The position numbers and the translations under genes were made by a program. This document shows positions 4,529 to 57,172 of a stretch of DNA of 64,000 nucleotides, one piece after another. This DNA is from Dechloromonas sp. ZY10 (GTDB taxonomy: Bacteria; Pseudomonadota; Gammaproteobacteria; Burkholderiales; Rhodocyclaceae). The notes under the pieces were generated by a model, which was not told the origin of the DNA, did no database searches, and saw only the letters and a list, made by a program, of their open reading frames with translations. Numbering within the stretch: position 1 is the first letter of the stretch; every line of letters begins with the position of its first letter. Location of the stretch: positions 2,527,501 to 2,591,500 of the forward strand of contig NZ_CP144212.1 in the NCBI RefSeq assembly GCF_041378895.1. Direction: 5' to 3'.

Positions 4529-4762
4529 GATCTGCTCCCGAAAGTGGTTCACGGCCTGCCATCCTTGTCGTGGCGGGGCTTCAGGGACTATCTTAATCCC
4601 ATGCGAGCAAGCCCGCACGTCGACCGCCGGGCAACCCCCGGCGGAATTCCGCGCAAACCGGAGAAGCTGCGCCAAAAAAGCAGGCTTTTTACGGTCGACC
4701 GTGGCTCCCTCCGGATTTCTCCGGCATCGTCTGTCCACCCTGAATCAGCCCCTGTCCTCACC
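4529..4762. promoter_or_regulatory. Divergent intergenic region with a core palindrome
   Basis: This 234-base gap separates the minus-strand STAS-like gene from the plus-strand radical SAM gene, so it should hold two promoters. It contains one exact copy of the repeated palindrome ACGGTCGACCGT at 4691-4702, preceded by AGCAGGCTTTTT. Unlike the copies between convergent genes, this one has no matching GC arm on the right side, so it is not an obvious terminator here. Confidence 0.6.
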
Positions 4763-5737
4763 ATGACCACCACGCCCCCACCGACCGCACAGACCCGGGA
4801 AGAAATTCTCGCCTGCCTGCAAAATACCCCGCTGCGCATCGGCCAGATCGACGTCAACGGCAAATGCAATGCCAAGTGCTGGTATTGCCCGGTGAAGTAC
4901 GAAGGCAATCCGCAGGAGTTTGCGGTCCAGATGCCGCCGGAGATGCTCGACGAGATTCTCGGCAAGCTGCGGGCATCGCCCCTGATCACACCCGATTTCC
5001 GCTTCCTCTACACCTGTCATTACAACGAAGTGCTGCTCTACCGCCATTTTGCCGAACTGCCCGGACTCTTCCGCAAGCACGGTTTCGCCACCATGGTACT
5101 GTCGAATGGCACACCGCTGACTCCCGAAAAAATCGACATCATCATGGACAATCAGGACGTGATCTGGGGTCTGGCACTGAATATTCCGGCGCTCGAACAA
5201 AACGACTGGGCCCGCAAAACCGGCTTCCCTGCGAGCATGCACAACAAGCTGCTGCGCAATCTCGATTATCTGCACGAGCGGCGCAGCGCGACCATCCAGA
5301 TCAACTGCGCCACCAATACGGCCAGTGTGCTCGGCGAAGGCATGGGCAACACCAGCGAAGAAGCAGAGAATATCGCCGAAGCCTTCCGCCAGCGCTATCC
5401 GAAATTCAAAATATCGCTGCAAACCTGGCTCAGCGACCGGGCGGGAAAACTCAGCGAGCATGGAGCGATCTCGCTGCAACAAGCGGCCAGGCAACCGATC
5501 ATCGGCTGCTCGCACTCGGCCAACGAAGGCGGCCGGGTGTTCGGCTGGGCACACATCAACGCACGTGGCCAGATGTTTCTATGCTGCGACGATTACGAGA
5601 TGCGCTACCGCTTTGGCGACCTGACCCAACAGAGCTTCGCCGAAGCCTGGCTGTCGGCCGAGCATATCGATGCGATCGAAGCCTCGCGCAACGGCATTTG
5701 CCGCCACTGCCCCTTCCGCATCGAGCAGACAGCCTGA
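4763..5737 (+). CDS. Radical SAM/SPASM domain protein
   Basis: A 324-residue predicted iron-sulfur enzyme. CNAKCWYC (C35, C39, C42) is the CxxxCxxC ligand set for the SAM-cleaving 4Fe-4S cluster. The C-terminal third has further cysteines (C252, C274, C275, C313, C316) in the layout of a SPASM auxiliary-cluster domain. These enzymes make a 5'-deoxyadenosyl radical; many SPASM members modify peptides or act as maturases. No small precursor peptide gene is visible next to it, so the substrate is unknown. The start at 4763 was chosen because homologous content begins there; no strong ribosome site is visible. The longer frame from 4325 overlaps the opposite-strand STAS gene. Confidence 0.88.
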   Translation: MTTTPPPTAQTREEILACLQNTPLRIGQIDVNGKCNAKCWYCPVKYEGNPQEFAVQMPPEMLDEILGKLRASPLITPDFRFLYTCHYNEVLLYRHFAELPGLFRKHGFATMVLSNGTPLTPEKIDIIMDNQDVIWGLALNIPALEQNDWARKTGFPASMHNKLLRNLDYLHERRSATIQINCATNTASVLGEGMGNTSEEAENIAEAFRQRYPKFKISLQTWLSDRAGKLSEHGAISLQQAARQPIIGCSHSANEGGRVFGWAHINARGQMFLCCDDYEMRYRFGDLTQQSFAEAWLSAEHIDAIEASRNGICRHCPFRIEQTA

Positions 5738-5749
5738 AGCAGCGGCCGC

Positions 5750-6601
5750 TCAGTCCTGCTCGACCGGGCTGGCGCGCGAGAAATGCGTGGCGGCGATGCC
5801 GGAGAGGATGATCAGGCCGATCGCCGCCCAACCCGAGGCGTCCATCACCTCGCCCCAGAGCTGCATCCCGAAGAGGCTGGAAAAAATCACCGTACTGTAG
5901 GCCAGCGCCGCCGAAACCAGGGTTTTACCGCGCGAATAGGCGCGGGTCATCGCCAGTTGCGCAACGGTGGCAAAGCTGGCCACCCCGAGCAGCAGCAAGC
6001 CGCTCTCCAGATCCACCGGATGCAGTTCGGAAAACGCCAGCCAGACGGCAGCGCAGACGGTAGACACCAGCGAAAAATAAAATACCGTGCGGGTTTCCGA
6101 CTCGCCGCGCGCGCCCAGCTGGCGGACGCTGAAATAAGCCATCCCGGCCATGATCCCGGAACCCAGACCGATCAGACCGCCGACCAACTGCTCGGCGTGC
6201 AGGGTCGGTTTGAGCAACAGGCCAACCCCGAGCAGCCCGACCGCCAAGGCCCCGAGCATGCCGCCCCGGACGCGCAAACCGGCCAGCGCCAGATAGAGGG
6301 CGAGAAAGATCGCCGAGGTGTAGTTGAGCGTCACCGCCGTCGCCAGCGGCAACAGGGTAATCGCGTAGAAATAGGAAAACAGCGAAATGAAGCCGACCAC
6401 GCCGCGCGTGATCTGCCAGCGCAGGTGCGCGGTCGCCAGCGGCACGCCGCGCAGGCGAACCAGACCGAACATCAGAATCAGCGACAGGAAACTGCGCCAG
6501 AAAGTGATCTCGACCGCCGAATGGGTAGCCGATGCGAGCTTGACGCACACTCCCATGCAGGCGAAGAGCAAGCTGGCAACGATCATCCACAGGGATTGCA
6601 T
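5750..6601 (-). CDS. DMT-superfamily (EamA) membrane transporter
   Basis: A 283-residue hydrophobic protein with about ten membrane helices in two EamA repeats, starting MQSLWMIVASLLFACMGVCV. Conserved features include the early FWRSFLSL segment and the AxxLNYTSAIF-like helix. The family exports metabolites such as amino acids, nucleosides or drugs; substrate cannot be told from sequence. The start at 6601 fits the first membrane helix; an upstream ATG at 6652 would add a basic leader. It converges on the radical SAM gene with only 12 bases between stops. Confidence 0.88.
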   Translation of the reverse strand: MQSLWMIVASLLFACMGVCVKLASATHSAVEITFWRSFLSLILMFGLVRLRGVPLATAHLRWQITRGVVGFISLFSYFYAITLLPLATAVTLNYTSAIFLALYLALAGLRVRGGMLGALAVGLLGVGLLLKPTLHAEQLVGGLIGLGSGIMAGMAYFSVRQLGARGESETRTVFYFSLVSTVCAAVWLAFSELHPVDLESGLLLLGVASFATVAQLAMTRAYSRGKTLVSAALAYSTVIFSSLFGMQLWGEVMDASGWAAIGLIILSGIAATHFSRASPVEQD

Positions 6602-6648
6602 AGAAAGCCGGTTATCCGAAACGAGGCAGAGTCGCGCCGACGCGATCC

Positions 6649-6689
6649 GCAAAAAACAAAAGGGCGCCGGCTTTTTGCTGCCGACGCCC
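6649..6689 (-). terminator. Intrinsic terminator after the Rieske oxygenase gene
   Basis: A hairpin of GGGCGCCGGC (6662-6671) and GCCGACGCCC (6680-6689), ten pairs with one mismatch and an eight-base loop. Read on the minus strand it is followed by a run of T broken by one G (6649-6661), as expected for termination downstream of the Rieske gene. Confidence 0.7.
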
Positions 6690-6709
6690 GGTTGACCGTG
6701 GAAGACCGC

Positions 6710-11012: not shown

Positions 11013-11813
11013 ATGAGCACCCCGAACACTGCTATCCCCGACGTGCAGAACCTGGCCGACACCCGCCAGATCGCGATCAATAAAGTCGGGATCAAGTCGA
11101 TCCGCCACCCGATCAAGGTCCAGGACAAGTCCGGCGGCATCCAGCACACCATCGCGATGTTCAACATGTACGTCAGCCTGCCGCACAACTTCAAAGGCAC
11201 GCACATGTCCCGCTTCGTCGAGATTCTCAACAGCCACGAGCGTGAAATCTCGGTCGAAAACTTCCCGGCGATGCTGCGCGACATGGTCGAAAAGCTCGAA
11301 GCCGAAAGCGGCCACATCGAGATGAGCTTCCCGTACTTCATCAACAAGGCCGCGCCGGTTTCCGGCGTGCAGAGCCTGATGGACTACGACGTCACCTTCA
11401 TCGGCGAAATCTGCGGCGGCGAAATCCGCTTCTCGCTCAAGGTCGTGGTCCCGGTCACCAGCCTCTGCCCGTGCTCGAAAAAGATTTCCGAATACGGCGC
11501 CCACAACCAGCGCTCGCACGTCACCGTCACCGCCCGCACCAACGGCTTCCTGTGGATCGAGGAACTGGTCCAGTTGGTCGAAAGCGAAGCCTCCTGCGAA
11601 CTGTGGGGCCTGCTCAAGCGCCCGGACGAGAAGTACGTCACCGAGCGCGCCTACGACAACCCCAAGTTCGTTGAAGACATGGTTCGCGACGTCGCCGCCC
11701 GCCTCAACGCCGAAACCCGGATCGATGCCTACATCGTCGAATCCGAAAATTTCGAGTCGATCCACAACCACTCCGCCTACGCGCTGATCGAAAAAGACAA
11801 AACACGCGGCTAA
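11013..11813 (+). CDS. folE2: GTP cyclohydrolase I type 2 (FolE2)
   Basis: A 266-residue member of the GCYH-IB (FolE2) family, which converts GTP to 7,8-dihydroneopterin triphosphate at the head of folate synthesis. The family markers are the SLCPCSK motif with its conserved cysteine, [14 protein letters not shown], and the C-terminal [10 protein letters not shown]. FolE2 can use metals other than zinc and in some bacteria is induced under zinc limitation; no Zur site was identified here. It lies 26 bases after dxs and may be cotranscribed. Confidence 0.95.
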
Positions 11814-11828
11814 ACCGGCAAAAACCCG

Positions 11829-11887
11829 GATTTTCACGGTCGACCGTGAAAATCAGCCAAAAAGCGCAGCCAGGCTGCGCTTTTTTC
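11829..11887 (+). terminator. Core palindrome followed by an intrinsic terminator
   Basis: Two adjacent elements lie between folE2 and the convergent AraC gene. 11829-11854 is a perfect 26-base inverted repeat centred on GGTCGACC with core CACGGTCGACCGTG and AT arms. It is followed by an ordinary terminator: AAAAGCGCAGCC, then GGCTGCGCTTTTTT (about 11860-11886). The palindrome has no GC outer arm of its own here. Confidence 0.8.
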
Positions 11888-11903
11888 TTTTTCACTGCCG
11901 CCG

Positions 11904-12707
11904 CTACCCGGCAACCGCAAAAAACTCGCTCGGCGCAGCGCCGAACTGGCGGCGGAACATGGCGGTAAAGGCGCTCGGGCTGGCGTAGCCGGCGTCGAGC
12001 GCGACGTCGAGGACGCGACGGCCGGCGGCCAGTTGTTGCAGGGCGAACAGCAGCCGCGCTTGGCGCCGCCATTCGCCGAAGCTCATCCCGGTCGCTCGCT
12101 GAAAACGCCGCTGCAGGGTGCGGCTGTCGATGCCCAAGGCCGCCGCCCAGTCGACCGTTGTGCGCGCGTCGTCGGGGGTGTTGCGCAGGGTTTCGCACAA
12201 GGGCTGCAGGAGCGGATCGGCGGGGATCGGCAGCGCCAGTGGCAGGCTTGGCAGGATTTGCAGTTCGTCGAGCAGTACGCGGATCAGCCGTTCGGCCCGG
12301 CTCTCAGGCGGATGCGGCGGCTGCAATTGCACCGCCGCCAGCAGCAACTCGCGCAGCAGCGGCGTCACCGCCAGCACGGCGCACATGCTCGGCATCGCCC
12401 GCACCGCATCGGGCCGGACATAGACGCTGCGGATGCACACCCGGCTCAGCATCCGCACCTGGTGCCACTCGCCGGGTGGAATCCAGATCGCCCGGCTCGG
12501 CGGCGCGATCCATTGGCCAAGCCCGGTTTCAACCTGCATCACCCCCTCGATCGCGAACAGCACCTGCGCCACCGGGTGGGTATGGCGGATGGTCGTCGTT
12601 CCGGCGACGTAGGTTTCGGATTTGCCGATCAGCAAGCTGTCGGCCATCGCCTCGGGCGGGCCAACTTCGGCAATCGGCGCCAGCGCCGGGTTGCTTGGGT
12701 ACTCCAT
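11904..12707 (-). CDS. AraC-family transcriptional regulator with cupin sensor domain
   Basis: A 267-residue regulator. The N-terminal part (HTHPVAQVLFAIEGVMQVET, IPPGEWHQV) is a cupin-like ligand domain. The C-terminal part has the AraC double helix-turn-helix with LGIDSRTLQRRFQRATG and the second helix ending AGYASPSAFTAMFRRQFG. The ATG at 12707 starts at MEYPSNPALAP; the longer frame to 12785 would put a hydrophobic stretch in front. It is divergent from the Fsr-type exporter gene and probably controls it, as neighbouring AraC genes of this kind often do. Confidence 0.88.
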   Translation of the reverse strand: MEYPSNPALAPIAEVGPPEAMADSLLIGKSETYVAGTTTIRHTHPVAQVLFAIEGVMQVETGLGQWIAPPSRAIWIPPGEWHQVRMLSRVCIRSVYVRPDAVRAMPSMCAVLAVTPLLRELLLAAVQLQPPHPPESRAERLIRVLLDELQILPSLPLALPIPADPLLQPLCETLRNTPDDARTTVDWAAALGIDSRTLQRRFQRATGMSFGEWRRQARLLFALQQLAAGRRVLDVALDAGYASPSAFTAMFRRQFGAAPSEFFAVAG

Positions 12708-12803
12708 GTCGCTTTCTCGATAGTTTCTGCCACAATCCAGCAGGACAGGCAAAAGCATAACACCTAGCATGATCACCCGACTCATCCCTGGAGCCTCCCG
12801 ATC

Positions 12804-14009
12804 ATGACCAGCAGCACCGCTTTACCCGCCAACGCCGCGCCCGACGATACCCGCTACCGGGTACTGACCGCGATCAGCCTGGCGCACTTTCTCAACGACA
12901 TGATGCAGTCGCTGATCCTGGCGCTTTACCCGATTCTCAAAGGCAATTACCACCTCAGTTTTGGCGAAATCGGCCTGCTGACCCTGACCTACCAATGCAC
13001 CGCCTCACTGCTGCAGCCGCTGGTCGGACTCTTCACCGACCGCAAGCCGATGCCGCGCGCCTTGGCGCTGGCCATGGCCGCGACGCTGATCGGCTTGCTG
13101 CTGCTGGCGCAGGCCACCACCCTGCCCGGCCTGCTGCTGGCGGCCGCACTGGTCGGCACCGGTTCGGCGATTTTTCATCCGGAATCGTCGCGGGTGGCGC
13201 GCCTGGCCTCGGGCGGCCGGCACGGCTTCGCGCAGTCGCTGTTCCAGTTGGGTGGCAATGGCGGCACCGCCGCCGGTCCGCTGCTGGCGGCGCTGATCAT
13301 CCTGCCCGGGGGCCAGCACAGCGTTGCCTGGTTTGCGCTCGCCGCGCTGCTGGCGATCATCGTCCTCTGGCAAGTCGGCAACTGGTATCGCACTCACCTA
13401 GCGGCCCAGCCCACACGGGCACCGGCACCGGTGCAGGCGCCGCTGGCGGCTGGCCGCACCCGGCTGGCACTGGCAGTGCTGGTCGGCCTGGTGATCGGCA
13501 AATACACCTACATGGCCAGCCTGCACAGCTACTACACCTTCTACCTGATGCAGCATTTCGCGCTCGACGCCGAGGCAGCGCAGCTCTACCTGTTCGCCTT
13601 TCTCTTTGCCGCTGCTGCCGGCACGCTGCTCGGCGGCCCCCTGGGTGACCGGATCGGGCGGCGCAGCGTGATCTGGTTTTCGATTCTCGGCACCATTCCC
13701 TTCGCGCTGTGGCTGCCTCATGCCAACCTGCACGGCACGCTGCTGCTGAGCATGGCGATCGGTTTCATCCTCTCGTCGGCGTTCTCTGCGATTCTGGTCT
13801 TCGCCCAGGAGTTGGTGCCAGGCAAGGTGGGTACGATTTCCGGGCTGTTCTTTGGTCTGGCCTTCGGCATCGCCGGACTGGCCGCCGCCGTGCTCGGCTG
13901 GCTCGCTGACCACTGGGGCATTGTCGGCATCTACCAGCTGAGCGCCTGGCTGCCGCTGAGCGGCCTGATCGCGCTGGCTCTGCCGGACCTGCGCCGCAGC
14001 GGCCGTTGA
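12804..14009 (+). CDS. fsr: MFS exporter, fosmidomycin-resistance (Fsr) type
   Basis: A 401-residue transporter with twelve predicted membrane helices. The N-terminal ISLAHFLNDMMQSLILALYP, the FHPESSRVARLASGGRHG loop and SLFQLGGNGGTAAGPLLA match the Fsr group of the major facilitator superfamily. Fsr expels fosmidomycin, an inhibitor of DXP reductoisomerase, the step right after Dxs. The dxs gene lies only about 1.8 kb upstream. Natural substrates may differ. A divergent AraC regulator precedes it and a bidirectional terminator follows. Confidence 0.88.
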   Translation: MTSSTALPANAAPDDTRYRVLTAISLAHFLNDMMQSLILALYPILKGNYHLSFGEIGLLTLTYQCTASLLQPLVGLFTDRKPMPRALALAMAATLIGLLLLAQATTLPGLLLAAALVGTGSAIFHPESSRVARLASGGRHGFAQSLFQLGGNGGTAAGPLLAALIILPGGQHSVAWFALAALLAIIVLWQVGNWYRTHLAAQPTRAPAPVQAPLAAGRTRLALAVLVGLVIGKYTYMASLHSYYTFYLMQHFALDAEAAQLYLFAFLFAAAAGTLLGGPLGDRIGRRSVIWFSILGTIPFALWLPHANLHGTLLLSMAIGFILSSAFSAILVFAQELVPGKVGTISGLFFGLAFGIAGLAAAVLGWLADHWGIVGIYQLSAWLPLSGLIALALPDLRRSGR

Positions 14010-14013
14010 AGCA

Positions 14014-14045
14014 AAAAAAAACGGAGTGCCGAGGCACTCCGTTTC
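14014..14045. terminator. Bidirectional terminator between fsr and rplS
   Basis: The inverted repeat AAACGGAGTGCC / GGCACTCCGTTT with a two- to three-base loop and flanking A- and T-rich ends lies between convergent genes. The A-run on the left makes it usable from the minus strand as well as the plus strand. Confidence 0.85.
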
Positions 14046-14068
14046 CTGAACTGAAAGAACAGTCCTGA

Positions 14069-14452
14069 TTACTGCGCGGCCGCAGCAGCCGGCTTGCGTG
14101 CAACCAGCTTTTCCTTGATGCGGGCGGACTTGCCGGAACGCTCGCGGAGGTAGTACAGCTTGGCACGACGCACATCACCGCGACGCTTGACTTCGATCGA
14201 AGCAACCAGCGGGGAGTAGCTCTGGAAAGTACGCTCGACGCCTTCGCCGGAAGAGATCTTGCGGACGATGAAGGAAGAGTTCAGACCACGGTTGCGCTTG
14301 GCAATGACCACGCCTTCGTAAGCCTGCAGACGCTCGCGGTTACCTTCCTTGACCTTCACTTGCACGACGACGGTGTCGCCGGGAGCGAAATCAGGGATGG
14401 TCTTGCCCAGGCGGGCGATTTCTTCTTGTTCCAGTTGTTGAATCAGGTTCAT
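14069..14452 (-). CDS. rplS: 50S ribosomal protein L19
   Basis: A 127-residue ribosomal protein with the typical start [17 protein letters not shown], the [20 protein letters not shown] segment and the FRKIS-like [17 protein letters not shown] core. It sits at the 30S-50S interface in the large subunit. It is the last gene of rpsP-rimM-trmD-rplS, the conserved order in most proteobacteria, 24 bases after trmD. The C terminus carries a short Ala-rich tail. Confidence 0.98.
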
Positions 14453-14476
14453 GTGAGATCCTTCGATTGTTAAATT

Positions 14477-15250
14477 TTACTCACCGCATTGCTCCGCTTC
14501 GGCAATTTCCGAGAGGAGTTGCGTTTCTTCCGCAGTCAGACTGCGTTGCGCCAGCCAATTGGCCAACAGCTCCGGGCGGCGCTCCCGGGTTCGCTGCAGC
14601 GACTGCTTGAGCCGCCAGCGGCGAATCTTTTTGTGGTCGCCGGACAGCAGTACTGCCGGCACCCCTTGTCCTTCGTAGACTTCGGGCCGCGTGTAATGCG
14701 GGCAATCGAGCAGGCCATCGACAAAGGAATCCTCGGTCGCCGACGCAGCATCGCCCAGCACCCCCGGCAACTGGCGGACAACGGCATCGATCAACACCAT
14801 TGCCGGCAATTCGCCGCCGGACAGCACGAAATCTCCGACCGATATTTCTTCATCGACGCAGCGCTCGATCAGACGCTCGTCAATTCCTTCATAGCGACCG
14901 CAGAGGAGGATCAAGCCCTCGTCGGCGGCAGCCAGTTCCATCACTCGCGCATGCGTCAGCGGACGCCCTTGCGGCGACAGGTAAATCACCCGGCTGCGCA
15001 CCACGCCGACAGCGGACTGGGCCGCCTTGGCTGAGGCAATCGCCTTTTCCAGCGGCGCGGCCTGCATCAGCATGCCGGGACCGCCGCCAAACGGCCGATC
15101 ATCGACGCGCCGCCAGGCATTTTCGGCGAAATCGCGCGGATTCCAGCCTTGCCAGGCCCAGCGCCCTTCTTCCAGTGCGCGACGGGTAATCCCGCTCTGC
15201 GTGACGGCCGCGAACATCTCGGGAAAGATGCTCACGCAGTCGAAACGCAT
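14477..15250 (-). CDS. trmD: tRNA (guanine37-N1)-methyltransferase
   Basis: A 257-residue SAM-dependent enzyme that methylates G37 next to the anticodon and prevents frameshifting. The start [13 protein letters not shown], the [13 protein letters not shown] loop and the knotted SAM site ([13 protein letters not shown] and [15 protein letters not shown]) are clear. I placed the start at ATG 15250, which overlaps the rimM stop codon as TGATG; a GTG one codon earlier is also possible. Confidence 0.97.
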
Positions 15251-15795
15251 CACCAGTCGAGTCCCCAGTCGGCGAGAATTTCGCCTTTTTCGCGGTCGAC
15301 CGTGGAAACCACGGCATCGACGAAAGGCAAAAGCCGCTCGGTGCCATCTTCGCCAACGACGCGCAAGACATCGTTGGCACCGGTCTCGATCAGGCTGGCC
15401 ACCCGACCAAGCAATTCGCCCGCCGGATTAACCACCCGCATGCCGATCAAGTCGGCCCAGTAATACTCGTCGGCCGCAGTCTGCGGCAAGGCCGCGCGCG
15501 GCGCCCCGACCAGCACCCCCTTGAGGGACTCGGCAGCATTGCGGTCGGCAACGCCTTCCACTTGCACTACCAGACCGTCGCCGTGGGCCTTCAGCCCGAG
15601 CAGACCGATCTGGCGCCAGGGACCGCCTTCGCGCCCCAGCCACCAATGCGGCATTTGCCGCCAGGCCAGCGGGTCGTCGCCAAAAGCGTGCAGGTGCAGC
15701 CAGCCGCGAACCCCATAAGGATCGGCAAGCCGGCCCAGGACAACGATTTCGTCAGTCACAGCAATGCCGGACTGATCGGCAGGCTTGTCGCTCAA
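15250..15795 (-). CDS. rimM: 16S rRNA processing protein RimM
   Basis: A 181-residue 30S maturation factor. [20 protein letters not shown] is the RimM N-terminal barrel and [13 protein letters not shown] starts the PRC-barrel domain. The start is uncertain: the open frame begins with TTG at 15795, and a GTG at 15759 directly before TDEIVVLGR would also give a full domain; neither has a strong ribosome site. Near its 3' end the gene contains a near-copy of the repeated palindrome (15293-15302) encoding VSTVDRE, a position where RimM proteins usually have a similar VD motif. Confidence 0.94.
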
Positions 15796-15808
15796 GGCCG
15801 GAGAGCAA

Positions 15809-16063
15809 TCAGGCGGCTTGCTTGGCAGCGTACTGCTTGATCACGCGAGCAGCGGTCGGGCTCATCTGAGCGCCGTTCTGCTGCCAGTAGGTCAGGCGAT
15901 CCATGGCGACGCGAACGCCTTCTTCGCTTTCAGCAGCAACCGGATTGTAGAAACCGATGCGCTCGACGAAACGGCCATCACGACGGCAGCGGGAGTCGGC
16001 AACAACGATGCTGTAGAAGGGACGCTTCTTGGAGCCGCCACGGGCAAGACGGATAACAACCAT
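15809..16063 (-). CDS. rpsP: 30S ribosomal protein S16
   Basis: An 84-residue ribosomal protein with [40 protein letters not shown] and a C-terminal [24 protein letters not shown] helix. It is the first gene of the rpsP-rimM-trmD-rplS operon and is preceded by a good sigma-70 promoter on the minus strand. Confidence 0.98.
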
Positions 16064-16098
16064 GAGAATTCTTTCGTTAGCAGGAAAAAAGACTGTAG

Positions 16099-16126
16099 AT
16101 TATAGCGTCAAAGCGTGAAAAAACAA
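16099..16126 (-). promoter_or_regulatory. Sigma-70 promoter of the rpsP operon
   Basis: Read on the minus strand, TTGTTT (16121-16126) and TATAAT (16099-16104) are separated by 16 bases. The -10 matches the consensus perfectly and sits about 35 bases before the rpsP start. Confidence 0.7.
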
Positions 16127-16223
16127 GCCACTTAGCCAAAGGCTGCAGGAAAGAGGCGCGACAAGTTGTGAAAAAGCACGAAGCCTGTACATTTCCGGCG
16201 GTTTTGCTATCCTCGCCGGACCC

Positions 16224-17696
16224 ATGAATACGCCTCCGGAATACCATGATCCGGCCGGGCAAGCCGCCGCCGAAATCCTTGCCTGGCTGAGCAGCACCCG
16301 CCCCGCCAGCGCCGAACCCGGCGAGTTGCTGCGCCTGCTGCAATTACTCGACAGCGCCCCCCTGCCGAGCGAACCGCGGCAGCGCTTTCTCGACCTCATT
16401 TACAGCCAGGCTCTCCGCCTGGCCACCAACCTGACCGGTAGCCTCGGCACGCAGACGCTACCCTTGCCGCGACCGCTACGCCAGCGCACCCGGCAAACTG
16501 CCAGCCTCCTGGCGCTACTGGCTGAAACCTACGCCCGCAGCCCCGCCTTCCCAGCCACGCCCGCAGCCACCCGTCCGCACCATCTCTGGCAAGCCCTGCA
16601 GGCCAGCCTGTGGCAGTTGCGCACTGACCAGCAGAGCGCCGCCCCGAGCGAACCAGGAACCTGGCTGCGCATCCATGCGCTCTATCAGCGTGCCCACGAA
16701 CAGGGCATCCATCAACACCCCGGCCCCCGCCACACCGCCAGCATCGAAGCCCTTTACCTGCAACTGGTACTGGCTGCGATTGCGCAACCCACGTCGTTCA
16801 GTCCCGACGAAATCGGCTTCATTGGCGAGTATCTGGCCCAATCGCTCCCCCTGCCCGAGCTTTCGCAGCGGCCCGGACAACCGCCAACCACCTTCTGGAT
16901 CGACCCGAACAAGGATTTGCCGGCGCAAGCCCTGGTCCGGCGCAACCCGCCGCCGGAAACGGCCATCCTCTATCTCGACTGCCAGGCCCTGGCGGCCCGC
17001 ATCGGCGAGCATTGCCAACGACTGCAACAGGGCGCAACCAGCGAGCGACTTGGCCTGCCGCCGCTGCCGCCCGGCCTGCCCCTGCCAGCCACGTTGCGAC
17101 GCCTGCAACAACTCTGGGGCGAACCCGCCCGCCGCCGCTTTCCGCGGCGCCGCCAATCCTACCGGGCCAGCCTGCTCAGCGGCCTCGACACCCTGAACAA
17201 ATTTGCCCGCGACGGCTCTTGCGCGCAGCCGGGGAGCCAATGGATGGTCATCAACGAAAGCCCGGACGGGTATGCGCTGATGCACCTCAGCGGCGACAGC
17301 AGCAACATTCGCGTTGGGGATGTGGTGGCGATCCAGCCGCAGCGGGATTCCACTACCGACCGCGCCAACTGGCAAACCAGCCTGATCCGCTGGGTGGTTT
17401 CCGAGAATCCGGAACATCTGGAAATTGGCCTGCAGGTTCTTGCTCCGCAAATGCAGGCCGCCGAAATCGCCGGCTTGGCCGAGCGTATCCCGGCGCTATT
17501 CCTGCCGGAAAAGCCGCCGCTGCGCCCCCAAGCCGGGCTGATCGTGGCCGCCGGCAGCCTGCCCGGCCAGCCGGAGCGCTTGTTGCTGCTGGTGGAACAA
17601 GGCAATCTTTGCGTTCGCGAAGTACGCCCCACCCGCCTTGAAGAACAAACCGCGAGCGTCGAAATCTTCAGCGTCGAGCCCGATCACTCCCAGTAG
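16224..17696 (+). CDS. Large hypothetical protein with PilZ-like C-terminal motif
   Basis: A 490-residue protein I do not recognise by name. The first two thirds is helical, rich in Leu, Ala, Gln and Pro, with no membrane segment. From about residue 305 a basic stretch (RRRFPRRRQSYR) is followed some 30 residues later by WMVINESPDGYAL, which fits the PilZ pattern of an Arg-rich RxxxR followed by [DN]xSxxG. The later RWVVSENPEHLEIGLQVLAP resembles the closing strands of a PilZ barrel. Cyclic-di-GMP binding is therefore plausible but inferred. The stop lies 29 bases inside the end of the convergent yihY-like gene. Two diguanylate cyclases lie elsewhere in the window. Confidence 0.75.
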   Translation: MNTPPEYHDPAGQAAAEILAWLSSTRPASAEPGELLRLLQLLDSAPLPSEPRQRFLDLIYSQALRLATNLTGSLGTQTLPLPRPLRQRTRQTASLLALLAETYARSPAFPATPAATRPHHLWQALQASLWQLRTDQQSAAPSEPGTWLRIHALYQRAHEQGIHQHPGPRHTASIEALYLQLVLAAIAQPTSFSPDEIGFIGEYLAQSLPLPELSQRPGQPPTTFWIDPNKDLPAQALVRRNPPPETAILYLDCQALAARIGEHCQRLQQGATSERLGLPPLPPGLPLPATLRRLQQLWGEPARRRFPRRRQSYRASLLSGLDTLNKFARDGSCAQPGSQWMVINESPDGYALMHLSGDSSNIRVGDVVAIQPQRDSTTDRANWQTSLIRWVVSENPEHLEIGLQVLAPQMQAAEIAGLAERIPALFLPEKPPLRPQAGLIVAAGSLPGQPERLLLLVEQGNLCVREVRPTRLEEQTASVEIFSVEPDHSQ

Positions 17697-18516
17697 CCGC
17701 GAGCAAGCCGCCGAGCAGCACAATCCCCCAGGAAACGTGCAGCCAGAGCAGAAATACCGGAAACGCGGCAAAAGCACCGTAAATACTCTTCAGCAAAGCC
17801 GAACTGACCAGATAGTACTCGAACACTTTCTGCATTCCGGCGAAGGCGAACGCCGCGAAAAATCCGCCCAGCAGCGCACGCCGTCGCGCTACTGCGGCAT
17901 TCGGCACGGCGTAGTAGAGGAAGGAAAAGAACAGCCCGAGCAGGAACAGCGAACTCCCCTTGAGCACCCAGTGCTCGGCCAGACCAAGATCGCCAAACCA
18001 GCCGAGCGAATTGCTGACGGCAAACGACACGGCCAAAGCCACCCCGCCCAGCAGCAAGGGCCAGACCAGCATCATCAGCAGATACAGACCCAGACGATCC
18101 AACCAGCGCCGCGGCTCAACCTGCCACAAATGATTGAAGGCCCGCTCGATGGTGTGCAGCAGCATGAAAGCGGTTACCGCCAGGACCCCCAGGCCAGCCC
18201 AAGTCAGCTGTCGCGCCTTGTCGGTAAAGCGCACCAGGCCGGCGACGATGGTTGCCGCTGCCCCGGGCGGGAGCAAGGTGTCCTTGAGCAAGGCATCAAG
18301 CTTGAGCAGCAAGGGATCGGCATAGGGAAAAAAGTGCGCCAGCGACAACACCACGGTCAGCAGCGGAACCATCGACAACAGCGTGGTAAAAGCCAACGCA
18401 GCACTGGTCTGGATCATGTTTTCGCCGAAAAAACGGCTGACAATCCAGCGCACAGGGTTTTCTCGGCCGGCACTGACGCGCGAAGGCGACGGGCGTTTGC
18501 GGCGGGTAGTCGGCAT
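17668..18516 (-). CDS. YihY/BrkB-family inner membrane protein
   Basis: A 282-residue protein with about six membrane helices. FFGENMIQTSAALAFTTLLS and VPLLTVVLSLAHFFP match the family N-terminal region, and YGAFAAFPVFLLWLHVSWGI the C-terminal region. The family was once annotated as ribonuclease BN, which is wrong; its function is not settled. I placed the start at ATG 18516, giving a short basic leader before the first helix. Only 21 bases separate this start codon from that of divergent wrbA. Its 3' end overlaps the convergent PilZ-like gene. Confidence 0.88.
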   Translation of the reverse strand: MPTTRRKRPSPSRVSAGRENPVRWIVSRFFGENMIQTSAALAFTTLLSMVPLLTVVLSLAHFFPYADPLLLKLDALLKDTLLPPGAAATIVAGLVRFTDKARQLTWAGLGVLAVTAFMLLHTIERAFNHLWQVEPRRWLDRLGLYLLMMLVWPLLLGGVALAVSFAVSNSLGWFGDLGLAEHWVLKGSSLFLLGLFFSFLYYAVPNAAVARRRALLGGFFAAFAFAGMQKVFEYYLVSSALLKSIYGAFAAFPVFLLWLHVSWGIVLLGGLLAATGSDRARR

Positions 18517-18523
18517 GGGGCCG

Positions 18524-18529
18524 TATAAT
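18524..18529 (+). promoter_or_regulatory. Perfect -10 hexamer directly in front of wrbA
   Basis: TATAAT occupies 18524-18529 and the wrbA ATG is at 18538. A start of transcription about seven bases after the hexamer would fall at or next to the ATG, leaving no room for a ribosome site. No clear -35 was seen. Confidence 0.5.
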
Positions 18530-18531
18530 AG

Positions 18532-19128
<597 letters not shown>

Positions 19129-19130
19129 CC

Positions 19131-19499
19131 GTGAATATTCCCCCCGCATCCGCCCCGCGCTGGCAACTGCTGGCCAGCGCCAGCCTGATCGCGCTGATTG
19201 CCCTTTGCCTGGCCTGGGAAGGCTGGCTGGCCCCGCTCCGTCCCGGCGGCTCGTGGCTGATCCTCAAGGGCTGCTTCCTGCTGCTGCCGTTGTTCGGCAT
19301 CCTGCGCGGCAAGCGCTACACCTACAAGTGGCTGTCGCTGTTCGTGCAGTTCTACCTGCTCGAAGGCCTGACCCGCGCCACCAGCGAACAAGGGGCAAGC
19401 CAATGGCTGGCCGTCGGCGAAACCCTGCTCGCCAGCCTGCTGTTCGCCGCCTGCATCCTCTACGTGCGCGCCACCCGCAACCCGCCGACCACAGCGTAA
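19131..19499 (+). CDS. DUF2069 inner membrane protein
   Basis: A 122-residue protein with four predicted membrane helices: LLASASLIALIALCLAW, WLILKGCFLLLPLFGIL with the following GKRYTYKWLSLFVQFY motif, and a C-terminal pair. GKRYTYKW and QFYLLEG are typical of DUF2069, which often follows wrbA in betaproteobacteria. Function unknown. It starts with GTG two bases after the wrbA stop and is probably cotranscribed with it. Confidence 0.85.
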   Translation: MNIPPASAPRWQLLASASLIALIALCLAWEGWLAPLRPGGSWLILKGCFLLLPLFGILRGKRYTYKWLSLFVQFYLLEGLTRATSEQGASQWLAVGETLLASLLFAACILYVRATRNPPTTA

Positions 19500-19516
19500 A
19501 TCCCGCCCCGACCATG

Positions 19517-19560
19517 AAAAAAGGCGGTTTTCACGGTCGACCGTGAAAACCGCCTTTTTT
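19517..19560. terminator. 44-base perfect palindrome, bidirectional terminator with repeated core
   Basis: Between the convergent DUF2069 gene and leuA. Outer arms AAAAAAGGCGG and CCGCCTTTTTT flank the repeated core TTTTCACGGTC/GACCGTGAAAA. All 44 bases are self-complementary. The T-run on either strand makes it a bidirectional intrinsic terminator. Confidence 0.9.
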
Positions 19561-19580
19561 GTGCGGCAAGCGCCTAGGGC

Positions 19581-21122
19581 TTATACGTCGCCCTGCGCCT
19601 TGACCTTGTCGCGACTGGAATGCAGCTTGTTCAGCGCATTCAGGTAGGAGCGTGCGGAGGCGATGACAATGTCGGTATCCGCCCCGTTGCCATTGACGAT
19701 GCGCTCACCCAGCGCCAGACGAGTCGTCACTTCGCCCTGAGCATCGGTTCCGGTGGTGATCGCGTTGACCGAGTAGAGCAGCAGTTCGGCACCGCTGCCG
19801 GCGATGCTTTCGATGGCCTTGAAGGTAGCATCGACCGGGCCACCACCGCCCGCTTCGCCCTTTTTCTCGACGCCGCCGACATTCAGGATCACCTTGGCAA
19901 ACGGCAGCTCACCGGTCTCGGAACAGACATGTGAATACACCAGCTTGTAGTACTCCTGGTCCGGCGTCACCACCTCGTCGGAGACCAGCGCATGCAGGTC
20001 TTCATCGAAGATTTCGTGTTTCTTGTCGGCAAGTTCCTTGAAGCGGGCAAAGGCGGCATTCAGGGTTTCGTCGCTATCGAGTTCGATCCCGAGCTCGGAC
20101 AGACGGGTCTTGAACGCATTGCGCCCGGAATGCTTGCCCAGCACCAGCTTGTTCTGAGTCCAGCCGACATCCTGGGCGCGCATGATTTCGTAGGTCTCGC
20201 GGTGCTTGAGCACGCCGTCCTGATGGATACCCGATTCGTGCGCGAAGGCATTGGCACCGACCACGGCCTTGTTCGGCTGCACCGGGTAGCCGGTGATTTG
20301 CGACACCAGTTTGGAGGCGGGAACGATCTGCGTCGTCTCGATCCGGGTTTCGACCGGAAAAACGTCGCTGCGCGTGCGCACTGCCATCACGATTTCTTCA
20401 AGCGAGGCATTGCCGGCGCGTTCGCCCAAGCCATTGATCGTGCATTCAACCTGCCTGGCGCCAGCCATCACCGCCGCCAGCGAGTTAGCTACCGCCAACC
20501 CGAGGTCGTTGTGGCAATGCACCGACCACACTACCTTGTCGGAATTGGGCACCCGCTCGATCAATTGGCGAATGGTATCGGCGTACTGCTGCGGAATGTT
20601 GTAGCCGACGGTATCGGGAACATTGATCGTGGTCGCGCCGGCCTTGATCACTTCCTCGAAAATGCGGCAGAGGAAATCAATCTCGGAACGCCCGGCGTCC
20701 TCGGCGGAAAATTCGATATCGCCGGTGTATTGCCGCGCCCAGCCGATCGACTTGACCGCCTGCTCGACCACTTGGTCCGGCGTCATCCGCAGCTTCTTTT
20801 CCATATGGATCGGCGAAGTTGCGATGAAGGTATGAATCCGCCCCGACTTGGCTGGCTTGATCGCCTCGCCGGCACGCCGGATGTCGTTTTCGTTGGCCCG
20901 TGCCAGCGAGCAGACGGTCGAATCCTTGATTGCCTGCGCGATCGAGTGGATCGAATCGAAATCACCAGGGGAAGCGGCGGCAAAGCCGGCCTCGATCACG
21001 TCGACCCGCATCTTTTCCAGCTGACGGGCGACACGAATCTTCTCTTCCTTGGTCATCGACGCGCCGGGGCTCTGCTCGCCGTCGCGCAAGGTGGTATCGA
21101 AAATGACAAGATGCTGTTTCAT
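19581..21122 (-). CDS. leuA: 2-isopropylmalate synthase
   Basis: A 513-residue enzyme of leucine synthesis that condenses 2-oxoisovalerate with acetyl-CoA. The catalytic barrel has [16 protein letters not shown], the metal-binding [14 protein letters not shown] and [13 protein letters not shown]. The C-terminal part (about 395-500) is the leucine-binding regulatory domain with [14 protein letters not shown]. Length is typical for the long LeuA type. It ends the ilvBHC-pssA-leuA series, 15 bases after pssA. Confidence 0.97.
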
Positions 21123-27347: not shown

Positions 27348-27391
27348 AAAAAAGCCTGCTTTCACGGTCGACCGTAAAAGCAGGCTTTTTT
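27348..27391. terminator. Palindromic bidirectional terminator with repeated core
   Basis: Lies between the convergent RDD gene and lptG. Outer arms AAAAAAGCCTGC and GCAGGCTTTTTT enclose the core TTTCACGGTCGACCGTAAAA, which has one mismatched pair. T-runs on both strands make it a two-way terminator. Confidence 0.9.
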
Positions 27392-35455: not shown

Positions 35456-35585
35456 CGTGCCCGTTTGTGGCACCACCTGTTTGGCAGCGACTGGATTTTG
35501 CGCCTACGGGGGAACCCGGCCCCGGTCCCAGCCCGGGTGGTACGCTGGCGGCCTCACCCAAGCCAGCAGGATTTGGCGATTACTC

Positions 35586-35597
35586 ACGGTCGACCGT
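35586..35597. repeat. Intergenic copy of the core palindrome
   Basis: An exact ACGGTCGACCGT copy preceded by CTC and followed by AAAAATG, in the 213-base gap between the valS operon and the convergent pabBC gene. There are no GC outer arms, so it does not form a terminator by itself. Apart from this and the valS-operon terminator I see nothing in the gap. Confidence 0.85.
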
Positions 35598-35615
35598 AAA
35601 AATGCCCGAAAACGC

Positions 35616-37397
35616 TCAGCAGGCTGCCCCGGACTCAGCTTCAATGCCAGCAATCCAGTGCAAACCGCGCAAGGCGTTGCCGAGCCAGAAGCCATCCCGC
35701 AGATCGGCCGGATAAAGCACTGCCTCGCGCGCCCGGCCGCTGGCCAGCAATTCGCCACGCAAGACGCCGGGCAACGCGCCGCTGGCAAGCGGCGGGGTCA
35801 GCAGGATGCCGTCGCGCTCGACAAACAGATTGCTGCGCGCGCCTTCCGCCAGCTCGCCACGCTGGTTCAAAAACACCACATCGAACAGCACCGGGTCGCC
35901 GCCGATGCGCTGCAGCGCCGCGTCGTAGAGCGCACGCTGGGTGGTCTTGTGACGGCGCAAGGGATCGTCGGCATCGATCGACTCGGCCGCCAGCCAGGCG
36001 CGGCGCGGCCCCTCCGGTTCGGGCTGGAGCGGAAAGGCCGCAACCTCCGGCCGGCCGTCTTTGCCCAGCGTCAAGCGCACCCGCCAGTCGCCAACGGTCT
36101 TGTCAGCCGCGAGTTGGTGCAAGGCCGCAGCCACCGCTGATAGGTCGCAGGCAAACCCGAACCAAGCCGCCGAACGGGTCAGCCGGGCCAAATGCCCAGC
36201 CAGGGCCGGATAGTCGCCGGCGCTCAAACGCAAGGTTTCAATCAGCCGCAAGCCGGGATCGGCCGCGTGCACAAAGGCGCCCTTGAGCAGGCATTCGCGC
36301 CATTCGGCGGCTGGATCGGAGTCGGCGACGATGCCGCTGCCCAGGCCGAGTTGCGCCTGTCCATCGGCAGCAATCGCCAGCGTGCGGATCGCGACATTGA
36401 GCCTGAGGTCACCCTCCGGCGAGCGCCAGCCGAGTGCCCCAGTGTACAAGCCGCGCGGCGCTGCTTCGAGTTCGCCGGCGATCTGCATGGCGCGGATTTT
36501 CGGCGCGCCGGTGATCGAGCCGCAGGGAAAAACCGCACGCAGCAACTCGCCAAGGCGCTCGTCACCCGGCGCCAGTTCGGCAGAAATCTCGGACACCATC
36601 TGCCAGACGCTGGGATAGGCCTCGACTTCGAACAACCGCTCGACACGGACGCTGCCGGCTGCGGCGACGCGCCCAAGATCGTTGCGCAGCAGATCGACGA
36701 TCATCAGATTCTCGGCCCGGTCCTTGACCGAATCGCGCAAGGCCTCGGGTGGCAAATCACGCGGCGCGGTGCCTTTCATCGGCCGGGTCAGCAAGCGCCG
36801 GCCGCGCTTTTCAATGAATAGCTCCGGCGACAGCGAGACAATTGCCTCGCCGCCCGCCGGGTCGCCGACAAAACCGCCATAACGTACCGGTTGCCGCTCG
36901 CGCAGGCGTGCGTAGAGCGCCAGGGGCGAACCGAACACCCGGCCGCTGACCGGGAAGGTCAGATTGACCTGATAGCAATCGCCGGCGGAAATCCAGTGTT
37001 TGACACGGTCGACCGCAGATAAATAGTCTTTTTCGGCAATCTGCGGCTGCCAGCCGCCGAGACCGGCTACCGGAGCAACACCGACCTGCACCGCCAGCCA
37101 GTCCGCCGCCTCGTCGGCCCGCAAGGTCCGCACTGCGGCAAACTGCCAGATCCGCCCCAGCGGCGCCGCACCATCGGCCGGCAGTTGCCAGCCCGCCGGA
37201 GCCGCACGCGGCTCAAGCAGGTAGCCCAGCTCGTAATCAAGCGCCAGCACCGACCAGCCAGCGCCCCGCTCGACAGCAGCAAGAGCTGCGGCCAGACTCC
37301 CGGCATCGCGAATTTCATGGCAGGCGAGCGGCTGCTCGAATAGCCAAGCGGCGGGTTCGCCGGCCGGCGCCCGCCTGTCTTCAAAAAAGGCAATCAA
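35616..37397 (-). CDS. pabBC: Bifunctional aminodeoxychorismate synthase I / aminodeoxychorismate lyase (PabB-PabC fusion)
   Basis: A 593-residue fusion for 4-aminobenzoate synthesis. The N-terminal 360 residues are PabB-like with AGDCYQVNLTFP, SPELFIEK, TRPMKGTAPR and the PCGSITGAPKIRAM box. The C-terminal 230 are a PLP-dependent PabC-like lyase with HKTTQRALYDAA (active Lys) and FLNQRGELAEGARSNLFV. The product feeds folate synthesis, matching folE2 elsewhere in the window. No ATG is available at the N terminus: TTG 37397, or a CTG ten codons upstream, must serve as start. Confidence 0.92.
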   Translation of the reverse strand: MIAFFEDRRAPAGEPAAWLFEQPLACHEIRDAGSLAAALAAVERGAGWSVLALDYELGYLLEPRAAPAGWQLPADGAAPLGRIWQFAAVRTLRADEAADWLAVQVGVAPVAGLGGWQPQIAEKDYLSAVDRVKHWISAGDCYQVNLTFPVSGRVFGSPLALYARLRERQPVRYGGFVGDPAGGEAIVSLSPELFIEKRGRRLLTRPMKGTAPRDLPPEALRDSVKDRAENLMIVDLLRNDLGRVAAAGSVRVERLFEVEAYPSVWQMVSEISAELAPGDERLGELLRAVFPCGSITGAPKIRAMQIAGELEAAPRGLYTGALGWRSPEGDLRLNVAIRTLAIAADGQAQLGLGSGIVADSDPAAEWRECLLKGAFVHAADPGLRLIETLRLSAGDYPALAGHLARLTRSAAWFGFACDLSAVAAALHQLAADKTVGDWRVRLTLGKDGRPEVAAFPLQPEPEGPRRAWLAAESIDADDPLRRHKTTQRALYDAALQRIGGDPVLFDVVFLNQRGELAEGARSNLFVERDGILLTPPLASGALPGVLRGELLASGRAREAVLYPADLRDGFWLGNALRGLHWIAGIEAESGAAC

Positions 37398-56847: not shown

Positions 56848-56871
56848 AAAACAAAAAGTGGAGTGAGACAG

Positions 56872-56900
56872 AAGCGCCGGGGCAACCCGGCGCTTTTTTA
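56872..56900 (+). terminator. Intrinsic terminator after aceB
   Basis: AAGCGCCGGG pairs with CCCGGCGCTT around a four-base GCAA loop, followed by T-run. Confidence 0.9.
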
Positions 56901-56910
56901 TTGGTTTTTT

Positions 56911-56922
56911 ACGGTCGACCGT
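56911..56922. repeat. Intergenic copy of the core palindrome
   Basis: Exact ACGGTCGACCGT preceded by TTTTTT and followed by GGCAGG, with no outer arms. It lies ten bases after the aceB terminator. Confidence 0.85.
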
Positions 56923-57130
56923 GGCAGGAAGGAAAAAACCTCGACCCCGGCACCTATTGGTTTTTGTCGCAATCGACGCAAATCCTTACCTGGAAAGGCG
57001 CTCAGCATTTCCTGAGAAAGCGGTCGAAAAGCCTTCCGGGCAAGACATGTTGGCGACCCACAGGATAAACCAGGGGCGAAGGCGAACAGGGCCAGGAAGA
57101 ACCTGCCCCCCTAGGTGCCTCCTCGTGCAA

Positions 57131-57172
57131 AAAGGCCGGTTTTCACGGTCGACCGTGAAAACCGGCCTTTTG
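57131..57172. terminator. 42-base perfect palindrome, terminator with repeated core
   Basis: Outer arms AAAAGGCCGG and CCGGCCTTTT enclose the core TTTTCACGGTC/GACCGTGAAAA. All 42 bases are self-complementary. It serves the PHB depolymerase gene on the minus strand and could also stop read-through from the left. Confidence 0.9.

Follow-up and report, generated by a model that had tools for sequence, protein, structure and literature searches.

We describe a symmetric DNA element of about 44 bp, built around the near-inviolable palindrome CGGTCGACCG and two A/T tracts on either side, which is abundant in some Azonexus/Dechloromonas species and at background in others, including close relatives. 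From its composition and symmetry we read the element, with confidence and doubt about evenly balanced, as the chromosome-wide binding site of a putative dimeric DNA-wrapping protein, whose role would probably be architectural, that of a nucleoid-type protein.

The middle of the element is a 12-base palindrome that the initial annotation had reported seven times in the window (the whole stretch of 64,000 nucleotides analysed). All seven exact copies were recovered (Table 1), versus none across 100 dinucleotide-preserving shuffles; five of the reported start positions stand, and two, 19534 and 57146, are each one base off (19533 and 57145). A chance-level genomic count, named in advance as grounds for abandoning the element, was not seen: the 12-mer occurs 247 times in the 3,568,927 bases of the window's genome (G000), and a reversed 12-mer used as control occurs once. 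The claim that copies are always intergenic holds for 7 of 7 in the window and fails genome-wide, where 66 of 85 12-mers in 864 kb sampled lie outside genes, three on a gene edge and 16 inside; these intergenic counts depend on gene calls from a crude, home-made hexamer gene finder. Sampling followed a regular grid in the second half of G000; stretches from its first half, four further stretches, and those from G043, G044, G048 and G076 were picked at least in part round known sites, and their densities are biased accordingly. Nor does the 12-base core prove invariant as a whole: in the site-rich genomes examined the unvarying part is CGGTCGACCG, with an outermost A/T pair that differs by species. 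The TTTC/GAAA flank, towards which the match had been said to extend, also differs between species, and the element measures about 44 bp, not 12 to 20. Among the 864 kb of G000, which holds 385 cores in all, 83 exact 12-mers were counted versus 37 with one mismatch, and among tract-bearing copies 70 versus eight, all eight altered at the outermost base.

Two A/T tracts flank the palindrome on each side, the inner close to ±9.5 and the outer spanning ±18.5 to 20.5. In a profile of 70 unique 12-mer copies, A/T reaches 96-99% at ±18.5 to 20.5 and 66-89% at ±7.5 to 11.5, falling to background past ±22, such that core and tracts account for all sequence common to the copies. A and T are interchangeable in the outer tracts, and the letters on the two sides vary independently: 86 two-tract copies comprise T-A (left-right) in 20, A-T in 17, A-A in 15, T-T in 15 and mixed tracts in 19. 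The occurrence of A/T in every combination is the signature expected of minor-groove or shape reading, and we infer a footprint that is symmetric, covers about 44 bp and would have its minor-groove contacts one helical turn apart. At least five of six tract bases are A/T in 112 of 132 copies of the 10-mer in G000, where 3.6% of random places reach this level, and in 10/13 (G011), 15/20 (G048), 11/17 (G076), 8/11 (G008), 5/7 (G010), 14/19 (G043) and 16/19 (G044) elsewhere. When all 6-, 8- and 10-bp palindromes with tracts were screened, the GTCGAC-centred one alone stood out in G000, G008, G043 with G044, G048 and G076; nothing stood out in G050, G016 or G041. A composite pattern with fixed tract positions gave 45 matches in G000, overlapping ones included, and is too narrow to serve as a count.

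Table 1. Copies of the element in the window and their genomic settings
Feature	Footprint	Strand	Core	Setting	Remarks
Element copy 1	4675..4718	.	4691-4702	SpoIIAA-like gene (-, 4175-4528) / radical SAM gene (+, 4763-5737)	A/T tracts both sides; sole divergent spacer among the seven
Element copy 2	11820..11863	.	11836-11847	Convergent folE2 (+) / AraC-type regulator (-)	Separate terminator-like hairpin adjoins, 11859-11885
Element copy 3	19517..19560	.	19533-19544	Convergent DUF2069 gene (+) / leuA (-)	
Element copy 4	27348..27391	.	27364-27375	Convergent RDD-family gene (+) / lptG (-)	Hairpin-forming
Element copy 5	35570..35613	.	35586-35597	Convergent 161-aa unnamed gene (+) / pabB-like chorismate-binding gene (-)	
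Element copy 6	56895..56938	.	56911-56922	Convergent malate synthase (+) / unnamed 506-aa gene (-)	
Element copy 7	57129..57172	.	57145-57156	Shares spacer with copy 6	Hairpin-forming
One-mismatch copy	36989..37032	.	Begins at 37005	Within pabB-like gene	Final core base changed; A/T tracts

Location with respect to genes is biased in G000: 41 of 83 intergenic sites fall in convergent spacers, which make up 20% of spacer bases (enriched, p 4e-9), and 9 of 83 in divergent spacers, which make up 23% (depleted, p 0.004). Outside G000 the bias is weaker or unproven. Five of 11 tract-bearing sites in G008 lie in called genes, and two of its six spacer sites are convergent (p 0.36); intergenic fractions of tract-bearing sites elsewhere are 8/10 (G011), 10/15 (G048), 8/11 (G076), 9/14 (G043), 10/16 (G044) and 2/5 (G010). 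Sites are spaced at random along the chromosome, and the first 100 of the 247 positions, together with the sampled stretches, reveal no marked bias along the origin-terminus axis.

Comparison with the sister species G011 documents conservation of the tracts themselves: in paired copies the neighbouring sequence has drifted, and the outer tracts are still A/T. In ten G000/G011 pairs, matched by nearest site and including up to three that may not be true orthologues, all 20 positions at ±19.5 and all 20 at ±20.5 remain A/T, two of the former and three of the latter having switched between A and T; identity at ±22.5 to 25.5 is 45-60%. The pairs derive from 38 G011 sites, 25 of them outside sampled G000 and 13 mapped, ten with and three without a G000 site within reach. 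Among individual window copies, the paired G011 counterpart of copy 4 has the opposite letter in one outer tract, and copy 5 is also present in G011. The spacer of copy 3, next to leuA, carries the element in G011 and lacks it in 11 of 11 other relatives of the genus with a readable leuA 3' flank (that of G013 is not readable). Beside its orthologous malate synthase gene, G008 has a copy corresponding to copy 6 in its own spelling. The one-mismatch core at 37005 encodes Val-Asp-Arg in the pabB-like gene; protein constraint may explain this conserved in-gene copy, which was for that reason dropped as a sign of selection on the site.

Across the genus, distribution is patchy: 38 of 76 genomes, about half, hold 45 cores or fewer and are at or near background, and individual numbers include 470 (G076), 253 (G010), 26 (G051) and 14 (G016). 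A tree of 50 of the 76 genomes, some nodes of which are weak, interleaves species rich in sites with species poor in them. Carriers stand close to non-carriers in two groups, G008 and G076 beside G050 and G006, and G045, G047, G049 and G070 beside G016. Site positions are mostly not common to distant species, and spelling next to the core forms species dialects: at +5.5/+6.5, G000 has T-G, G048 T-C, G008 C-A, and G043 and G044 C or T at both, in a table restricted to tract-bearing copies, whose tract conservation is thus partly by construction. Outside the genus, counts surpass those of the reversed control in some genomes, among them G389 (80 versus two) and G439 (53 versus seven).

Of the two readings offered in the initial annotation, a REP-like mobile palindrome or the site of a dimeric protein, the latter is favoured by the dyad symmetry, the strict core, the phased and interchangeable A/T tracts, and the conservation of tracts between sister species. 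As we envisage it, each subunit would make major-groove contacts with one half-site of CGGTCGACCG, and a species-variable part of the protein would recognise the few bases beyond the core (±5.5 to 7.5). The DNA would bend round the protein, with two A/T-rich minor grooves per side (about ±9.5 and ±19.5) facing it. Hundreds of irregularly spaced sites would be kept where a 44-bp complex harms least and may help, the favoured places being downstream of genes, chiefly between convergent genes; there a nucleoid-type protein might pin, wrap or insulate DNA between transcription units, and some copies may double as intrinsic terminators. Several observations weigh against this proposal. A protein of general chromosome architecture ought to occur in every species, yet roughly half of the genus has cores at or near background only. 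The turnover of positions between distant species, their random spacing and the weaker or unproven location bias outside G000 also count against it. The strictness of the core, moreover, exceeds what is usual for nucleoid proteins and resembles that of uptake signals. Among genomes of the genus, none of four families (ParB-family paralogue, ComEC, RAYT, GspH) tracks core number. The ParB paralogue was rejected as candidate partner: core-rich G076 and G010 each have a single ParB match, of strong chromosomal type, and a second match is present in core-poor G016 and G051; median core numbers are 107 with a second ParB-family protein and 62 without (p 0.13).

An unlikely alternative, to which we nevertheless give some weight, is that the palindrome serves as a signal for uptake or for self-DNA, a functional counterpart of USS and DUS. 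Strict core and phased tracts would mark a species' own DNA, accumulating in harmless places, drifting into dialects and decaying where the system is lost. The signal would have evolved independently, with two-sided phased tracts, to mark some Azonexus/Dechloromonas chromosomes; it would be recognised by a putative system for uptake, sorting or self/non-self discrimination, and the signal would have come or gone more than once in one genus. As expected of USS and DUS, exact copies of a short, strict core far outnumber those with one mismatch, and the mixture of rich and poor species on the tree, random spacing and position turnover all suit such a signal. DUS are non-palindromic; dyad symmetry in the present element fits a dimer. 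ComEC occurs in 51 of 51 good genomes, site-rich or not, and in site-rich G008 is split over contigs and contains a stop; GspH-type pilin numbers do not track the core count (rho -0.21, p 0.13). According to the passages of the literature cited here, the USS of Pasteurellaceae shares with the element a strict core (9 nt), two A/T-rich regions at helical-turn spacing (PMC12616744) and occurrence in terminators (PMC5217627), but is non-palindromic, has its A/T-rich regions on one side, downstream (PMC12616744), numbers about 1300 copies in H. influenzae (PMC5217627) versus 385 cores in G000, and has an established uptake function. The DUS of Neisseriaceae, as there described, likewise forms species dialects of one motif within a group and occurs in terminators, as inverted pairs (PMC3630211); it differs in being a continuous motif of at most about 13 nt without distant tracts (PMC12616744), present in thousands of copies (2787 to 3603 for king3DUS; PMC3630211).

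An operator for some ordinary global regulator of transcription, as the palindromic core might suggest, is an improbable reading: G000 sites are depleted between divergent genes and enriched between convergent ones, positions are mostly not kept among distant species, and the core is stricter than in usual operators.

The convergent bias in G000 would also suit a family of intrinsic terminators with a favoured stem tip, and part of the RNA-folding evidence agrees. Long hairpins form in copies 3, 4 and 7 (z -7.0, -9.4 and -7.9 against shuffles); fully complementary arms give copy 3 a 20-bp hairpin with a terminal T-run, and this copy may also act as a terminator. Of 90 copies, 16 have 12 or more of 15 arm pairs complementary, versus 2% expected from arm shuffling. 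The other 74 copies lack such arms, however, and in three of the seven in the window the fold is either matched by shuffles (copy 1, z 0.03; copy 5, z -0.04) or bettered by most of them (copy 6, z 1.96); the hairpin of copy 2 is weak (z -3.2). T on the left with A on the right (20) is as common as the converse (17), and gene-internal copies have tracts as well. A simple scan of 11500-28000 found 21 terminator-like sites versus 17.6 ± 4.3, no excess; copies 3 and 4 were absent from its output, perhaps as the T-run was counted as stem. Terminators are contradicted as a general explanation, where we hold them distinctly improbable, and are possible for the hairpin subset.

An iterated palindrome arising through repair or mutation linked to a methyltransferase, like HIP1 of cyanobacteria, is highly improbable. 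As portrayed in the passages cited, HIP1 is likewise a highly iterated, GC-rich palindrome that shows single deviations at its outer bases and that some relatives lack or have in low number (PMC4390886), and distant A/T tracts are not reported for it there. In the present case only copies whose A/T tracts lie 20 bp out are in excess: the core by itself is not enriched in genes, where six genomes, rich or poor in sites, have similarly few tract-less copies (0-17 per Mb).

A REP-type palindrome moved by a RAYT transposase, the other reading of the initial annotation, is contradicted and carries next to no probability. The element does resemble REP/BIME sequences as a dispersed, mostly intergenic palindrome at gene ends in hundreds of copies, but Y1_Tnp (RAYT) matches at E <= 0.001 number zero in G000, G076, G048, G019, G008 and G080 and one to three in G011, G043, G044 and G010, which complete the ten richest genomes, and RAYT number is unrelated to core number (rho -0.006 over 56 genomes that are 90% complete or more). 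REP sequences have a defined body with a GTAG head; the copies described here share no homologous body, only core and A/T tracts, and the independence of tract letters on the two sides argues against copying from a template.

In the open-access literature the 12-mer string was not found, occurrences of the 10-mer string were unrelated by title among the matches listed, papers on Dechloromonas intergenic palindromes were, judged by title, none about the element, and no Dechloromonas uptake sequence was found; wider open-access searches gave no description of the element in titles or abstract starts. Among known counterparts are two palindromic motif pairs, in D. alkenivorans (57 copies, 55 intergenic, 18 between convergent genes) and A. 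ebreus (114 copies, 107 intergenic), which in the passages cited are likewise unexplained, palindromic and mostly intergenic, and differ in sequence and gap length and in being presented without dialect or tract analysis (PMC5217627). A single genus with carriers, intermediates and non-carriers offers a natural experiment on a putative chromosome-wide DNA-binding system. Identifying the protein partner would bring to light either an architectural protein of a new kind, whose sites co-evolve with it, or a self-DNA signal not described before. It would also put to the test whether dialects like those of uptake sequences can develop in site systems of other kinds. The sites of Noc, SlmA and MatP, and parS, are biased along the origin-terminus axis. 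The element may differ from these in axis bias, none of it marked over the positions surveyed, and differs in that a second ParB-like protein does not follow its sites; with them it would share the character of a palindromic site bound by a dimeric chromosome protein.

The seven copies of the 12-mer palindrome ACGGTCGACCGT (10-mer core, CGGTCGACCG) that the initial annotation reported in the window were borne out, with none in 100 shuffles, and the complete genome of 3,568,927 bases (G000; the window spans 2527501-2591500) contains 247 copies against one of the reversal, a control with the same letters in reverse order. The element is real and far above chance, and we recognize it as a new family of dispersed sites whose putative partner was not among the four protein families searched. 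The window itself returned no match to Rfam (gathering scores) or with ARAGORN. The nearest named relatives of its LeuA include Dechloromonas and Azonexus assemblies (90-92%), from which the genus is assigned, and other records at 92-93% are named to phylum or class only.

Among 70 unique copies, the core is flanked by inner tracts of 66-89% A/T at ±7.5 to 11.5 from the dyad centre and outer tracts of 96-99% A/T at ±18.5 to 20.5, with G/C-rich letters between them and background composition beyond ±22, giving an element of about 44 bp in which the steps from tract to tract and from tract to dyad are each about 10 bp, the length of a helical turn. Every one of the seven copies in the window is flanked by tracts on either side; outer tracts lie on both sides in 86 of 103 unique copies, and in these A and T are interchangeable (left-right T-A in 20, A-T in 17, A-A in 15, T-T in 15, mixed in 19). 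Away from stretch ends, 864 kb contained 83 exact 12-mers, 70 with both tracts; tracts accompanied 8 of 37 cores with one mismatch, all eight altered at the first or last base, and 5 of 91 with two. When all palindromes of 6, 8 or 10 bp accompanied by tracts at the element's distance were screened, CGGTCGACCG occurred 86 times in G000, the next 10-mers listed occurring once each, and was the sole outlier in the related genomes G008, G043 with G044, G048 and G076; no core stood out in G050, G016 and G041. Cores that lack tracts and lie within genes are scarce (0-17 per Mb) in the six genomes counted, whether site-rich or site-poor, so it is the complete composite, not the core, that is overrepresented. 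One 1.1-kb convergent spacer (Table) combines several element copies with longer repeats (an inverted repeat, GTACTTTTCTTG...CAAGAAAAGTAG); two of its cores lie 29 bp apart, the outer tract of one coinciding with the inner tract of the other.

Locations of element copies and associated features (z, fold score; the three window copies without a hairpin have z 0.03, -0.04 and 1.96)
Feature	Location	Observation
Window copy 1	core start 4691	no hairpin
Window copy 2	core start 11836	weaker hairpin, z -3.2
Window copy 3	core start 19533	long hairpin, z -7.0
Window copy 4	core start 27364	long hairpin, z -9.4
Window copy 5	core start 35586	no hairpin
Window copy 6	core start 56911	no hairpin
Window copy 7	core start 57145	long hairpin, z -7.9
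Repeat-bearing convergent spacer	G000:C1 279851-280960 (L034 14851-15959)	
Near-gap in copies	G000:C1 ~855600-1054300	one 12-mer copy in ~199 kb
Second ParB-like protein	G000:C1:1503639-1504184	
Element copies near it	1502696, 1504759	within ~1 kb
Irregular ComEC matches	G008:C10 and C17	
Irregular ComEC match	G059:C1 ~1959178	
Irregular ComEC matches	G019:C72 and C39	
Irregular ComEC match	G018:C8	

Called genes make up 86% of the G000 bases sampled but hold 28 of 114 tract-bearing cores (p = 3e-49), so that the initial claim of an always intergenic element survives as a preference and not as a rule. Among spacers 30 bp or longer, the convergent ones, with 20% of spacer bases, held 41 of 83 sites (p = 4e-9), and the divergent ones, with 23%, held 9 (p = 0.004). 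A second sample, a regular grid plus the window (itself picked by the earlier finding), gave the same picture, with 14 of 49 sites in genes, 16 of 32 sites in convergent spacers comprising 12% of bases (p = 9e-8) and 3 of 32 in divergent ones (p = 0.05). Six of the seven window copies lie between convergent genes. The bias was weaker in G008 (5 of 11 sites in genes; of six spacer sites, two convergent, p = 0.36, and none divergent); intergenic tract-bearing copies numbered 8/10 in the sister species G011, 10/15 in G048, 8/11 in G076, 9/14 in G043, 10/16 in G044 and 2/5 in G010. For the first 100 of the 247 copies, spacing fits an exponential (p = 0.36) and sampled stretches revealed no marked bias along the origin-terminus axis. 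One stretch sampled inside the near-gap has a lower G+C (0.53), which suggests acquired DNA.

Of 76 genomes of the genus, 38 contain no more than 45 copies of CGGTCGACCG, 9 contain 46-99, 19 contain 100-199 and 10 contain 200-470. For the reversed 10-mer the median is 33 and the highest count 116; in 25 of the 76 the count of CGGTCGACCG is not above the genome's own control. High counts of the 12-mer are confined to G000 (247), G011 (236) and G048 (120); no other genome exceeds 27. A wider count of 399 genomes of the order, five of them from the genus itself, gave a maximum outside the genus of 80 palindrome copies; eight genomes of other genera in the family had 0-15, and a few outside the genus exceeded the reversed control (G389, 80 vs 2; G439, 53 vs 7). 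Tracts, scored as at least five of six tract bases A/T (3.6% at random places), accompanied 112/132 10-mers in G000, 10/13 in G011, 15/20 in G048, 11/17 in G076, 8/11 in G008, 5/7 in G010, 14/19 in G043, 16/19 in G044, 1/2 in each of G019 and G015, and 2/4 in four poor genomes pooled. Spelling at +5.5/+6.5, judged from small samples of tract-bearing copies, is T-G in G000 and G011, T-C in G048, C-A in G008 and G010, C or T at both positions in G043/G044, and mixed in G076. A ParA, ParB and RsmG tree covering 50 genomes places rich G008 (262) near poor G050 (41) and G006 (27), at weak nodes, and poor G016 (14) amid genomes with 160-194 cores (supports 88 and 99); this mixture indicates that the element was lost or gained more than once.

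Sites are retained between close relatives: both G000 and G011 carry one in all five syntenic spacers where either does, and G043 and G044 share four of five. Distant pairs mostly lack common sites (G000/G008, 0/3 spacers; G008/G010, 1/2). Copies in G008's own spelling adjoin orthologues of folE2 and malate synthase, some coincidence being expected since sites occupy 36 of 82 convergent spacers. The leuA spacer has the element in G000 and G011 and in none of 11 other readable relatives. Thirteen G011 sites map to sampled G000, ten with a G000 site within reach and three without. Across these ten pairs, all 20 positions at each of ±19.5 and ±20.5 remain A/T despite two and three A-T exchanges, respectively, so the A/T class of the tracts is conserved rather than the letters; identity at ±22.5 to 25.5 is 45-60%.

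A REP-like mobile palindrome, one of the two readings initially offered, is rejected: G000 has no RAYT (REP-associated transposase), nor do five more of the ten genomes richest in the core, and RAYT counts show no correlation with core counts (rho -0.006, n 56). Terminators may account for the long hairpins of some copies, and in 16 of 90 copies 12 or more of the 15 arm positions pair (2% expected from arm shuffling); with paired arms confined to those 16 and three of seven window copies unfolded, we reject terminators as the general explanation, and the element is not an RNA element in general. A simple terminator scan of 11500-28000 showed no excess (21 vs 17.6 ± 4.3 in shuffles); copies 3 and 4 were not among its sites, and it picked a separate hairpin adjoining copy 2. 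Because well-paired copies include T...A arms, which would not end in a T-run, template switching that perfects palindromes may contribute to them. In the leuA 3' spacer (L051-L063), 10 of 11 readable element-less relatives have an ordinary stem-loop and T-run of unrelated stem, in the place of the element-centred hairpin of G000 and G011; that of G015 is a stem-loop without a T-run.

On this evidence neither RAYT nor any of three further candidates is the partner factor. An additional ParB-like protein, scoring 85 bits or more and listed for 38 of 76 genomes, is rejected since core number does not track it: core-rich G076 (470) and G010 (253) have a single ParB match each, core-poor G016 and G051 have the additional one, and median core number is 107 with it and 62 without (p = 0.13). 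In G000 this protein, whose kind is common across the genus, has two element copies nearby (Table). ComEC, present in 51 of 51 good genomes, and GspH-type pilins, near one per genome (one in 69 of 76), are likewise rejected. ComEC matches in several genus members appear split, shortened or interrupted.

We consider the element likely to be a protein-DNA footprint, and give even chances to an architectural or insulating role. A dimer would read the core in the major groove, with the DNA bent round it and the A/T minor grooves turned inwards, an arrangement we infer because the core and A/T-interchangeable tracts at ~10-bp steps match established protein-DNA geometry. The chief rival is an uptake-type signal of self-DNA. 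According to the respective reports, the uptake signal USS likewise joins a strict core to A/T-rich regions in helical phase (PMC12616744), and DUS has dialects (PMC3630211), much as the element has species spellings; USS, however, is not palindromic, and both are more numerous, DUS reaching thousands of copies. The cyanobacterial HIP1, as described in PMC4390886, is also a palindrome repeated many times that deviates at its outer bases and that some relatives have at low numbers or lack, but a HIP-type process would enrich the core alone, and here the core without tracts is not enriched. The element thus shares features with USS, DUS and HIP1 and matches none. Since a 2017 survey lists further intergenic pairs of palindromic motifs that have no explanation, a number of them located between convergent genes (PMC5217627), dispersed palindromic site systems may be commoner than is known.
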